Shown here piece by piece: positions 9,450 through 37,876 of a DNA stretch of 64,000 nt. Every line of letters begins with the position of its first letter. The stretch's first letter is position 1. A program made the translations under genes and the position numbers. The notes under the pieces were generated by a model. That model ran no database searches and was not told where the DNA came from. It saw nothing but the letters and a program-made list of their open reading frames with translations. The DNA is from Natrialbaceae archaeon AArc-T1-2 (lineage in GTDB: Archaea > Halobacteriota > Halobacteria > Halobacteriales > Natrialbaceae). Location: contig NZ_CP127174.1 of assembly GCF_030273315.1 (NCBI RefSeq), forward strand, positions 434,001-498,000. The letters run 5' to 3'.

Positions 9450-10409
9450 ATGACTGACATCGGCTATCACGTCTCACACGAGCAGTTTGCACCGAGCGAT
9501 CTCCTCGAGTGGATCCAACGTGCACAAACACAGGGATTCGATCACGCGCTCGCGTCGGATCACTTCCATCCCTGGAGCGAGCAACAGGGCGAGTCGGGGT
9601 TCGTCTGGTCCTGGCTCGGCTCGGCGATGGAAGCGACCGACATGACCTTTGGCACGGTCAACGCGCCCGGCTACCGCTATCACCCCGCCATCGTCGCACA
9701 GGGCGCGGCGACGTTGCGGGAGATCTATCCCGGGCGATTCTGGCTCGCTGTCGGCAGCGGTCAGATTCTCAACGAGGGGATCGTCGGGACCGACTGGCCG
9801 GTCAAACGCGACCGGAACGCTCGCCTCGAGGAGTGTGCCGAGATCATGCGCCGACTCTGGGACGGCGAGGAAGTGACCCACCACGGTCGCGTCGACGTCG
9901 AGCAGGCGAAACTGTACTCGCGTCCCGAGACGCCACCGCCATTGATCGGTGCGGCACTTTCCGAGGAAACCGCCTCGTGGCTTGCCGAGTGGGCCGACGG
10001 GATGATCACGATCGCCACGCCGGATCACGAAGACGACGCCAGCCGCGTCGAGGCGTTCCGGGAGAACGCACCGGAGAAACCGGTCTACCTCAAGGCCCAA
10101 CACTCCTACGACGAGACTGACGAGGCCGCACTCGGGGGCGCATACGAGCAGTGGCGCAACCAGTGCGTGCCGGGAACGGTGACACAAGAGCTCCGGACGC
10201 CCGAAGAGTACGACGCCCTCGGTGCCCAACTCTCCGAGGAACACGTCGAAGAACACGTTCGCGTCTCGGCAGATCCCAAAGAGCACGTCGACTGGATCGA
10301 GGCGGACCTCGAACTCGACGTCGACAAAGTGTTCCTCCACAACGTCAACACGAACCAGCCGGAGTTCATCGATACGTTCGGAGAGGAGGTGTTGCCCGCA
10401 CTCGAGTGA
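9450..10409 (+). CDS. F420-dependent LLM-class oxidoreductase
   Basis: A 319-aa luciferase-like monooxygenase-superfamily protein of the TIM-barrel, coenzyme F420-using type. Features are the early motif HALASDHFHPWSEQQG (residues ~30-45), which resembles the F420-dependent glucose-6-phosphate dehydrogenase group, and the block REIYPGRFWLAVGSGQILNE at ~92-111. The length is normal. The start at ATG 9450 gives a proper N-terminus (TDIGYHVSHEQFAPSDLL). The substrate cannot be told from sequence; glucose-6-phosphate or another hydride donor is possible. It is the first clearly chromosomal gene after the accessory region and stands as a single gene. Confidence 0.88.
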   Translation: MTDIGYHVSHEQFAPSDLLEWIQRAQTQGFDHALASDHFHPWSEQQGESGFVWSWLGSAMEATDMTFGTVNAPGYRYHPAIVAQGAATLREIYPGRFWLAVGSGQILNEGIVGTDWPVKRDRNARLEECAEIMRRLWDGEEVTHHGRVDVEQAKLYSRPETPPPLIGAALSEETASWLAEWADGMITIATPDHEDDASRVEAFRENAPEKPVYLKAQHSYDETDEAALGGAYEQWRNQCVPGTVTQELRTPEEYDALGAQLSEEHVEEHVRVSADPKEHVDWIEADLELDVDKVFLHNVNTNQPEFIDTFGEEVLPALE

Positions 10410-34920: not shown

Positions 34921-35018
34921 AGCGGGCGTCGGCGAGCGTTCGCTGGACGGTCTCCTGTCCGACGGCCTCAGCGGGCGTCGGCGAGCGTTCGCTGGACGGT
35001 CTCCTGTCCGACGGCCTC
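34921..35018. repeat. 49-bp tandem duplication at the 3' end of the MutS-like gene
   Basis: 34921-34969 and 34970-35018 are identical 49-bp units in tandem. On the minus strand both encode the segment EAVGQETVQRTLADAR. Because 49 is not a multiple of three, the second unit is out of frame: the protein now ends at TGA 34970-34968. Without the duplication it would read on through WQR to the TAG at 34912-34910. Confidence 0.95.
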
Positions 35019-36722
35019 AGCGAGCGTCTCGAAGCCGGCCCGTTCGGTCCGGTCGCTCGCGTTCGCGAGCAGTCGCGAGACGATAAACTCGGGCGTCGAG
35101 CGGCCGACGGTGCCAAAGCGAGGCTGGTAGTCGACCTGCAGCTCGAGGTCGGGATCGAGTCCCTCGGCGAAGATGCCGTCGACGCGAGCCGTCGGCGGGA
35201 GCGGCTCGAGGTCGTCGGCCAGGTGGGTGACGAACACGCCGAGTGCGTCCCGGTCGACGGTGAGCCGGACGAGTCCGTGGAGCAAGTCGGCGGCGCTGCC
35301 CGGCTCGGTGATCGCCTCGAACTCGTCGACGAGCATCAGGGTTCGCCCGCCGTCGGCAAGCGGCGGCACGATCGCTCGCAGCGTCGACTCGAGTACGCCC
35401 GCGTTGAAGCTTGCGTGACGCCGGTGAAAGACGATCCGCTCGACTGGCGTCACCTCGGCGCGGTCGGCGGGGACGGGAAGCCCCATCGAGGCCAGCAGGA
35501 CGACCTGACACAACGTCTCGAGCAGCGTCGTCTTCCCGCCGCTGTTTGCCCCCGTCAGGACGGCGACGCGTTCTTCGCCAGGCATCTGTTTCTGTTCGCC
35601 GCCTGCGAGGCCGTGATCGCCGAGCGCGTAGGTCACTGGCTGAACCGTGAGGTCACCGCGAGCGGCGAGTGCGAGGTTGCGGGCGTTCCGGACGGCGATC
35701 GCCTCCCGGTCACCCTCGAGGTAGGTCGGCCGCGTACAGTCGTACGCGAGGGCGAACCGGGCGAGCGACACCACGAGTGCGGTCTCGTCGACGGCCGAGA
35801 CGGCACGGTCGATCTCCTCGCGTGCGTCGTCGATCGTCGCCTCGAGGTCGCTCGCGACCGTCTGCTCGCGCTCGTCGATCGCCGACCGGAGGTCAGACTG
35901 CAGGTTCCGGAGCGTGGTTCGGACGAAGTCGGTCGCGTCGACGGGATCGGCCGCCATCGCCTCGCGGACTCGGTCGATCGTGACGTCGGTGTCGTTCACG
36001 AGACGATCCTCGAACGCCTCCCGGAACCGGGAGACGTCCCGAGCACCGCCGGCGTGGAGGTCGTCGATCAACTCGCGGGCGTTCGCGTCCAGATCCTCGA
36101 TCGTCTCCAGCGTCTCCCGGAGCCGATCGAGTTTCTCGTCCGCCCCCTCACGAACCCGACCGTCCGCGAGTGCTGACAGCGCGCTCGCCGCGTCCTCGAG
36201 CGTCTCGCGTTCGAGATCGGCGACCGCCTCGAACGGCCCGCCCTCGACGCCAGCCTCCTGCAGGGCGAGAGTGGCCTCGACGGCGGCGCGTTCGCTTCCC
36301 TCGCGGTCGTCGTAGCGTTCGTAGGCCGCGAGGACGGCCTCGCGGTCGCCGTCTGCGAGCGAAACCCAGACGTCGCGGGCGTCGAGAACGGCATCGAGAC
36401 GTTCGGTCATCGCCTCCCGGCTCTCAAGCGGCGTGAGCACGCGGACCCGATCGGCCGCACGCTCGGTGACCGCGTGCTCGACGAGCAACTCGAGTACGTC
36501 CTTGTACGCGTCGCGGGCGTCGCTCGTCGCGAGACGGTCCACCCCGTCGTCGCCGATCGCCCGCCGGAGAATGCGCGTCGCGCGGCCGCGTGGAATCCCC
36601 GCGTCCGTCAGCGCCCGGACGTCGCCGTTCTCGATCGCCGCCACCGCCTGCTGGGTCCCGAGTTCGGCTTCGAGCGTCTCCCGGGTCTTCGGGCCGACCC
36701 CCCAGTACTCCTCGAGGCGCAT
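34968..36722 (-). CDS. MutS-like ATPase with N-terminal helix-hairpin-helix
   Basis: A 584-aa protein. Residues 1-50 contain a helix-hairpin-helix region (EEYWGVGPKTRETLEAELGT, DAGIPRGRATRIL). Residues 70-360 are a helical clamp- or lever-like region. Residues 370-550 are the MutS ATPase with Walker A LTGANSGGKTTL, Walker B TLMLVDEFEA and the motif SFNAGVLESTLRAIV. No mismatch-recognition domain and no Smr endonuclease are visible, so it is more like the archaeal MutS5-type group than MutS1. It likely works on DNA junctions or recombination intermediates. A 49-bp duplication trims the last three codons. Confidence 0.88.
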   Translation of the reverse strand: MRLEEYWGVGPKTRETLEAELGTQQAVAAIENGDVRALTDAGIPRGRATRILRRAIGDDGVDRLATSDARDAYKDVLELLVEHAVTERAADRVRVLTPLESREAMTERLDAVLDARDVWVSLADGDREAVLAAYERYDDREGSERAAVEATLALQEAGVEGGPFEAVADLERETLEDAASALSALADGRVREGADEKLDRLRETLETIEDLDANARELIDDLHAGGARDVSRFREAFEDRLVNDTDVTIDRVREAMAADPVDATDFVRTTLRNLQSDLRSAIDEREQTVASDLEATIDDAREEIDRAVSAVDETALVVSLARFALAYDCTRPTYLEGDREAIAVRNARNLALAARGDLTVQPVTYALGDHGLAGGEQKQMPGEERVAVLTGANSGGKTTLLETLCQVVLLASMGLPVPADRAEVTPVERIVFHRRHASFNAGVLESTLRAIVPPLADGGRTLMLVDEFEAITEPGSAADLLHGLVRLTVDRDALGVFVTHLADDLEPLPPTARVDGIFAEGLDPDLELQVDYQPRFGTVGRSTPEFIVSRLLANASDRTERAGFETLAEAVGQETVQRTLADAR

Positions 36723-37322
36723 ACCCGAGGGATGTAAGTCACGTCTCTTGAAGATACGGTATCGGAGACGTCAGAACGGTTCGCGACGCGGTACCGGGCG
36801 GGGGGTGGGAGCCCCGCCCTGGCGTGAGAGACATGAGCGCACTCGAAGCGGGGGGCGAGTCCATCTTCGAGCGATCCGGGCACGAACGCACGGCAATCAG
36901 CCGGTGAGCGTGTCGTGGTCAGGGGCCGAGCGTGCACCCGACGGGGCTGTGACCCCGCACGTGGATGTGTGACGAGACTCGCCCTTTGTTATGGACCGTC
37001 GGATCGACCGTTAGCGTCCAGACAACCCTACAAACCGCTGCGTACGGACGTATAGCACTCAACTACGGACCGGACGACGGTTTCGTGAGGACGAACTGTC
37101 ACGCGAACCGACGCGGTCGACGCAGACGGCAGATCGTCGACCGTAGGTCGGCAGTAACCGACCGTATCCGATCCATTACGCGAATCGGGACGGTCGATGG
37201 GCTCTGGCTCGTATCCCGTACCGGCCGACCTCGGAGAATCGGGTCGTTAATACCGCCATAGAGCGGTTTCGGCCCGGGTTACAAGCCGGATAACTACGTC
37301 CGGATACGGGGACTGTCCTGCC
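36723..37322. other. 600-bp gene-free region holding a structured candidate
   Basis: No convincing gene on either strand. The part near 36796-36984 is dense in inverted repeats (next entry). The rest (36990-37322) is ordinary and leads to the zinc-finger gene at 37323. The open frames that cross it lack start signals. Confidence 0.5.
36796..36984. ncRNA. Candidate structured non-coding RNA, strand undetermined
   Basis: Hairpins visible by eye: GGGCGGGG 36796-36803 with CCCCGCCC 36812-36819; CTCGAAG 36842-36848 with CTTCGAG 36865-36871; CACGA/ACGC 36881-36889 with GCGT/TCGTG 36908-36917; CGTGC 36931-36935 with GCACG 36957-36961, enclosing GGGG/CCCC. A long-range GGGCGAGT (36853-36860) and ACTCGCCC (36977-36984) pair could close the module. 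It would conflict with, or form a pseudoknot with, the second hairpin. After it comes CTTTGTTA. It shows no match to RNase P, SRP or 5S motifs that I know. GC-rich haloarchaeal DNA forms chance hairpins easily, so confidence is limited. Confidence 0.35.
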
Positions 37323-37535
37323 ATGATCGAGTGCACGAACTGTGAAACTGCCCAGTTCCTGCAAATCACTCAGAGCCGCGTCTACTTCGAAGATGGTGAG
37401 ATGATAAACGAAGTCAGCGAAACCTACACGTGTACGCTCTGTGATGGAACTGGAACGTACATCTACCGGGAGGACGACGAGGAAACCGTTACCGGGGACG
37501 TGGTGGTAACCAAAGAGCGCCCACGGTTTGCCTGA
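37323..37535 (+). CDS. Small zinc-finger protein, DnaJ-like CxxC pairs
   Basis: A 70-aa protein with CTNC at residues 4-7 and CTLC at 37-40 followed by DGTGT. The four cysteines should bind one zinc ion. The pattern TYTCTLCDGTGTYIY recalls DnaJ central-type zinc knuckles and many haloarchaeal micro zinc-finger proteins (DUF7838-like). It stands alone upstream of the gas-vesicle cluster, convergent with gvpM by 57 bases. Confidence 0.78.
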   Translation: MIECTNCETAQFLQITQSRVYFEDGEMINEVSETYTCTLCDGTGTYIYREDDEETVTGDVVVTKERPRFA

Positions 37536-37591: not shown

Positions 37592-37876
37592 TCACCGCTC
37601 GATCGTATCCGCCCGATCCTGGCTCGTCTCGCGCTTGTCGTTTCGGGAGCCGTACTGTCGCCTGGCTACCGCGGCCGCTCGTCGATCCGTGTCCCACTCC
37701 TCGAACAACCCGTACTCGGTCATCGTCTCCATGCCGGCGATCACCGCCGTGAGCTTGATGCCGACCAGCGGGATCTCGGCGACGGAGACGATCACGTCCG
37801 CACGGACGACGGCCCCGTCTCGCAACACCACGTCCAGCACGTCGACGATCGCGTCCTCGTCTTTTTCCGGTTTCAT
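37592..37876 (-). CDS. gvpM: Gas vesicle protein GvpM
   Basis: A 94-aa GvpA-related protein starting at ATG 37876; that ATG overlaps the stop of gvpL (ATGA). The GvpA-type core is AIVDVLDVVLRDGAVVRADV at residues 9-28, then IPLVGIKLTAVIAGMETMTE. It lacks the strongly hydrophobic uniform end of the shell protein and carries a basic C-terminal tail, as expected for the minor homologue that nucleates assembly. Last gene of the leftward gvpFGHIJKLM chain. Confidence 0.9.
   Translation of the reverse strand: MKPEKDEDAIVDVLDVVLRDGAVVRADVIVSVAEIPLVGIKLTAVIAGMETMTEYGLFEEWDTDRRAAAVARRQYGSRNDKRETSQDRADTIER

Follow-up and report, generated by a model that had tools for sequence, protein, structure and literature searches.

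A predicted small RNA gene of the Natrialbaceae with a helically phased upstream array and a small CxxC protein gene as its usual neighbor

The partners and modes of action of archaeal small RNAs (sRNAs) are, to our knowledge, mostly open. Few of these RNAs are known beyond one genus, according to passages of PMC6560208, from which the closest described systems are also taken. In Haloferax volcanii, sRNA132 is reported there to be exclusive to the genus Haloferax and to act on a phosphate transporter operon through a predicted contact in the 3'-UTR. In Methanosarcina mazei, sRNA162 covers the ribosome-binding site and start codon, and sRNA41, as cited in PMC6560208, has sites within polycistronic mRNAs. 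Like sRNA132, the RNA described here is intergenic, haloarchaeal, clade restricted, and conserved in its place between two genes; unlike sRNA132, which that account limits to a genus, it is family-wide in another clade, the two being set apart by description and not by sequence. The Methanosarcina RNAs belong to another archaeal class, but the mode proposed here, in which the ribosome-binding site and start codon are covered, would resemble theirs as excerpted in the same source. A 70-aa protein encoded beside the RNA invites a second comparison, with the zinc-finger micro-proteins of Haloferax volcanii (PMC6562870). It is likewise small and single domain, with paired cysteines, but it was not seen in any genome sampled from beyond the family Natrialbaceae; the terms searched returned no mention of Natrialbaceae genera in the portions of PMC6562870 covered.

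The window, meaning the whole 64,000-nucleotide stretch of DNA that was analyzed, contains a predicted conserved, structured noncoding RNA gene on the minus strand that was previously unlisted. The gene is intergenic, between genes starting at 36722 and 37323, and together with its promoter region it reaches about 37069. Its ends can be placed approximately, the 5' end near 36959 (TGCGGGG...), set from the distance between a promoter-like box and the RNA, and the 3' end just past a hairpin at 36794. The match to the covariance model used below, R1, covers 36822-36959 (- strand). The features are as follows.

36794-36959, - strand: small RNA gene of ~166 nt, marked by a conserved core with sharp edges, an R1 match, helices, and strand bias.
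36942-36957, - strand: helix 1, the 5' hairpin CGGGG/CCCCG, with 98.7% of cells paired.
36876-36941, - strand: helix 2, with arms 36934-36941 and 36876-36883 around a variable inner domain, 96.7% paired.
36841-36860, - strand: helix 3, an ACTCG/CGAGT hairpin with a C-rich loop, 99.6% paired and mostly invariant.
36825-36838, - strand: unpaired linker GCTCATGTCTCTCA, its first 13 nt invariant, proposed from its conservation as an interaction site.
36794-36822, - strand: terminator-like, G+C-rich 3' hairpin that copies of differing sequence all rebuild (mean z of -2.03 over 81 distinct copies).
36983-36993, - strand: promoter-like box CATAACAAAGG, near-invariant in 99 copies and at TATA-box distance.
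36992-37069, - strand: helically phased array of GTAG, GCTA, TA, CCTG, GGTT, CTAC, and CAAG at 10.5-bp steps, detected by Fourier analysis.
37277-37297, + strand: nearly invariant 21-nt promoter motif GGTTACAAGCCGGATAACTAC of the small-protein gene, recognized by conservation.
37323-37535, + strand: gene for the small 70-aa CxxC...CxxC protein, the RNA's commonest and usually divergent neighbor.

As a DNA query, the 600-base gap matched in 33 of 61 genomes. The strongest matches fell mostly inside about 36790-36995, many of the weaker ones fell on the promoter of the next gene, and the aligned copies of relatives have sharp edges within differing surroundings. R1, which was built from 28 copies and contains 18 pairs, matched in 112 of the 125 family genomes and 25 of 29 genera, the named members of the family being Natrialbaceae genera. 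Each matching genome has one strong copy, except G136 (two replicons), and G127 has one weak extra match. Genera g10 (0/6) and g7 (0/2) gave no match, and the best E value in a more sensitive recheck of the 13 match-free genomes was 1.5e-4, from a g4 genome that is incomplete. All 68 genomes with R1 matches in a class-wide sample of 292 belong to the one family, with none found in six further family members or in roughly 218 genomes of other families, 204 of the latter being counted together and not itemized. Exact-pattern matches in named genomes numbered 52 and were nearly all in Natrialbaceae; a match in a bacterial MAG (L158) is probably due to chance. Among the carriers of the RNA are several Natrinema and Natrialba species that are named and in culture. 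The pattern occurred in 0 viral contigs and in two plasmid records, both of which also carry the small-protein gene. In Natronorubrum bangense, the chromosome bears one copy and an 828-kb plasmid another (L171, L180). The first-pass annotation had found no likeness to RNase P, SRP, 5S, or tRNA, and this holds: at the family gathering thresholds, Rfam 15, through whose families alone C/D and H/ACA guide RNAs were covered, gave 0 matches in the window and 0 in six related loci, the best subthreshold scores being 16.3 bits (against a gathering threshold of 64) and 13 bits (against one of 50). No description of the RNA was recognized in searches of open-licence PMC papers.

That annotation had suggested that a stretch without a gene, at 36796-36984, could be a new noncoding RNA, and it assumed the plus strand. 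The noncoding part of the claim stands, with no conserved coding gene in that interval. Distances between fixed anchors in 93 copies are spread over all three frames (31/34/28 modulo 3), with no conserved reading frame, and each RNA-strand frame has stops in 36 to 51 of these copies, which together mark the RNA as noncoding; the frames are partly open yet without conservation, and a coding reading was rejected. The strand and boundaries have to be changed. The supported helices, read as the minus strand, contain 156 G-U cells versus 17 A-C cells, so the minus strand pairs better, with standard pairs in 98.1% of cells versus 89.9% on the plus strand. RNAalifold on the aligned copies likewise gave the minus strand 31 pairs (covariation term, -0.46) and the plus strand 17 (+0.29); the 3' hairpin taken alone (26 G-U and 19 A-C) says little on strand. 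The RNA thus runs on the minus strand over 36794-36959, with its promoter region beyond.

Pairing was tested in 100 of the 114 R1 matches (95 distinct; 1,706 cells). In total, 98.1% of cells were paired and 6 of the 18 pairs changed on both sides (4 of 8 in helix 2), figures that favor the structure because it was derived partly from sequences later scored. The pairing and covariation scores were reached by 0 of 500 shuffles, and slid versions of the structure paired at 48.5% or less. The GCGGGG at the 5' end of the RNA, present in 100 of 100 copies, could instead pair with the C-rich helix 3 loop (CCCCGC; 99.3% paired and nearly invariant), and a pseudoknot may form between the two. Two inner helices suggested by folding, H3 and H4, were paired in 82 to 83% of cells, no better than shuffles, and are not included in the structure. 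Many copies from relatives have TTT after the 3' hairpin, and the copy in the window is without a T tract. At about 10060-10135 of locus L104 (G019), an insertion of roughly 70 nt follows helix 3, and beyond it the linker and the 3' hairpin are both kept. Overall, the RNA folds weakly better than shuffles: in 47 of 93 distinct copies, the RNA strand had a mean z of -0.85 and the opposite strand one of -0.23, and the opposite strand had the lower MFE in 32 of the 47. Conservation and covariation in relatives had been named among the checks on the original proposal. Conservation and helices with double changes were found, but no single pair was significant: a custom-made, tree-aware covariation scan, run on 92 of 93 distinct copies aligned by sequence only (without L113, and with L104 and L106 already set aside), gave no pair with an E value below 1, the scan being weak against misaligned hairpins.

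The pairing originally drawn at the locus is largely not that of the RNA. The region had been called hairpin dense, and many short inverted repeats do occur in 36796-36984; such repeats are to be expected in DNA this rich in G+C, and most are not the helices listed above. The plus strand of 36790-36990 folds at a z of -1.06, no better than dinucleotide shuffles (30 of 200 as stable), and was discarded as a structure; the minus strand folds at -2.06 (7 of 200). With the plus-strand fold and the folds of relatives near shuffle level, it is mainly the G+C content that accounts for the hairpin density. What lies beyond chance, as judged from the aligned copies, is conservation and pairing that persists through sequence change. 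A long-range pair between GGGCGAGT (36853-36860) and ACTCGCCC (36977-36984) has both arms in the window, but the right arm lies outside the predicted transcript, in the spacer of variable sequence that separates the promoter box from the start of the RNA, and just 2 of 98 copies preserve the 8-nt complement; the pair is therefore a chance one. The trailing CTTTGTTA is present at 36984-36991, not as a tail but as the reverse complement of the promoter-like box.

One invariant part of the RNA is unpaired. The linker 13-mer GCTCATGTCTCTC occurs in 100 of 100 copies and the 14-mer in 96, and a minimal copy in G027, located beside the small-protein gene, has lost its middle and kept the box, 5' hairpin, linker, and 3' hairpin; that this shrunken copy retains the linker suggests that the linker is the active element. 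Its complement, GAGAGACATGAG(C), resembles a ribosome-binding end followed by a start codon, which, along with the Methanosarcina RNAs sRNA162 and sRNA41, favors a trans-acting sRNA directed at Shine-Dalgarno (SD)-bearing, mostly operon-internal starts. We consider it reasonably probable, though well short of assured, that 36959-36794 (- strand) is a Natrialbaceae-specific, single-copy regulatory sRNA gene whose linker acts on ribosome-binding sites. The RNA would form a hairpin at its 5' end, then a closed domain, then the C-loop hairpin, leaving the invariant linker GCUCAUGUCUCUC unpaired before the terminator hairpin; the linker would most likely pair in trans with start regions of the form GUGAG...AUGAG (SD end and start codon) and block ribosome loading, as in sRNA162 and sRNA41. 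None of the targets tried was convincing, whether exact 12-mer complements, neighbor genes, or gvpL starts. Outside the RNA locus, the exact 12-nt complement occurs at about control frequency, with 4 extra sites in 20 genomes. Starts of gvpL pair slightly better with the linker than other SD-bearing starts do (P = 0.05; 18 versus 82, with four further loci having no recognized SD and one no result), and gvpL ranks first of 25 neighbor gene groups by duplex score.

The most constant neighbor of the RNA is the 70-aa protein gene, divergent from it in 35 of 39 loci. The gene is present in 116 of the 125 family genomes and, class-wide, in the same 68 of 292 genomes as the RNA. No genome was found with the RNA and without the small-protein gene, and G021, G036, and G103 retain both at separations of 0.2, 0.6, and 1.25 Mb. 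In four genomes the protein occurs and R1 has no match (G082, G148, G004, and G027); G082 and G148 are 77% and 66% complete, G004 has remnants of the box and hairpin beside the small-protein gene, and G027 has the minimal copy described above. Gains and losses of either gene are few, so this co-occurrence supports a link without proving it, and adjacency may contribute. The persistence of a single-copy RNA across the family beside this gene suggests that the two work together in gene control. The protein carries its CxxC pairs at residues 4 to 7 and 37 to 40, has a mean column identity of 88%, and gave no match in Pfam or NCBIfam; its predicted fold (mean pLDDT of 78.4) gave no Foldseek match below an E value of 0.7 and a best VIA Z of 5.2, a result by which no protein family is excluded. 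In four genomes of genus g6, a second copy, roughly 50% identical, lies elsewhere. The promoter box of the gene is 32 nt from the ATG in 33 of 35 cases, and patches GTAA and ATAG lie further upstream of GGTTACAAGCCGGATAACTAC. Co-regulation of the RNA and the small-protein gene is not proposed, the two promoters having no in-register match beyond a shared ATAAC.

Under the favored account, the 70-aa protein would be a partner of the RNA, binding or stabilizing it, or part of the same response. The main rival goes further: the RNA would pair with no mRNA, and the linker and hairpins would bind the 70-aa CxxC protein (or Lsm) in a family-specific ribonucleoprotein. Such a particle would fit the absence of any RNA without the small-protein gene, the high conservation of the protein, and a linker that is invariant though no target is recognizable; yet no recognizable RNA-binding family or clear fold match was found for the protein, four genomes have it without an R1 match, and no RNA marker motifs were found beside the extra g6 copies. 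We regard it as unlikely, if the most serious of the alternatives.

In a special case of the preferred sRNA reading, the RNA would regulate gas vesicles specifically, through gvp mRNAs from the cluster next to it. The first-pass annotation had described the gap as running from a mutS-like gene to gvp genes; the mutS-like start at 36722 is as described, but the gene on the far side is the 70-aa gene, and gvpM begins only at 37592, after it. Gas vesicle genes come after the small-protein gene in many loci, gvp genes lie near the RNA in 27 to 28 of 39 loci, and gvpL, the top gene group by duplex score, is present in 111 of 125 family genomes. The gvp genes are nonetheless less tightly tied to the RNA than the small-protein gene: 106 of the 125 genomes have both the RNA and gvpL, 6 the RNA only, 5 gvpL only, and 8 neither. 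Five genomes that are 99 to 100% complete (G016, G097, G105, G112, and G033) keep the RNA and the protein without gvpL, and G061 and G007 have gvpL without the RNA, which makes a gas vesicle restriction decidedly unlikely.

Upstream of the RNA, the conserved sequence has a different character. The T of the box sits 31 or 32 nt before the first RNA base in all 99 scored copies (L106 left out), and the RNA would be transcribed from this, its own atypical TATA-type promoter; CATAACAAAGG departs from the haloarchaeal TTWT/CGAAA consensus as quoted in PMC4983044. Above the box, conserved patches of 3 to 4 bp extend over about 77 bp, or about eight helical turns, to a sharp outer edge, with a mean information of 0.40 bit versus 0.08 further out (78 sequences). 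A Fourier peak of 19.7 at 10.5 bp was reached by 0 of 2,000 block shuffles (74 sequences), and when 25 genera were represented by a single sequence each, it was 16.7 at the same period (1 of 2,000); no such peak occurs in the outer flank or in the RNA body, and none is clear in the small-protein promoter. The period is that of the B-DNA turn, so one face of the helix is read. DNA wrapping of the Lrp/AsnC or histone-like type involves contacts that keep phase with the helix along an extended upstream region. The array here shares that long, phased layout and is likened to it by layout, not by motif; an oligomeric, wrapping protein may read the array, and the promoter would be controlled by a protein or oligomer touching one DNA face over about eight upstream turns. 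A sequence-only model of the array found nothing comparable elsewhere in 12 RNA-bearing genomes (best other match, E value of 0.035), so that in the genomes tested the RNA gene alone carries it. That 80 bp upstream behave as DNA, with 10.5-bp phasing, could be extended to the idea that the whole locus is an untranscribed regulatory or protein-binding DNA element; this is very unlikely given an RNA body with paired changes, a strong bias of G-U over A-C, and no 10.5-bp peak.

Neighbors vary while the RNA stays, and on the downstream side the mutS-like gene is present in 11 of 39 loci and a convergent alcohol-dehydrogenase-like gene in 15. The MutS-like protein of the window (34968-36722) scores far under the MutS2 and MutS cutoffs and has a partial KamC-like match of 81 bits (cutoff of 300). 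A riboswitch-like, cis-acting leader of the downstream same-strand gene, here the mutS-like 36722-34968, would suit the window, where that gene begins about 70 nt past the 3' hairpin, and the 11 loci with such genes, but with a variable, often convergent neighbor and a terminator-like hairpin at the end of the RNA it is the least credible reading of all.

The regulatory sRNA and the 70-aa CxxC micro-protein may together form a dedicated regulatory module of a single family, with the RNA promoter driven by the eight-turn, one-face array through an oligomeric wrapping regulator and a noncanonical TATA-type element; we put this forward as a speculative combination, possible but on balance doubtful. 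The RNA is single copy and occurs in almost every family genome sampled, including those of cultured species, which makes it directly testable. The phased array is a clean and uncommon example of the reading of long DNA stretches by archaeal regulators. The RNA gene itself would be of a known kind but new, archaeal, and family-wide; its promoter is unusual, and a protein is its likely companion.
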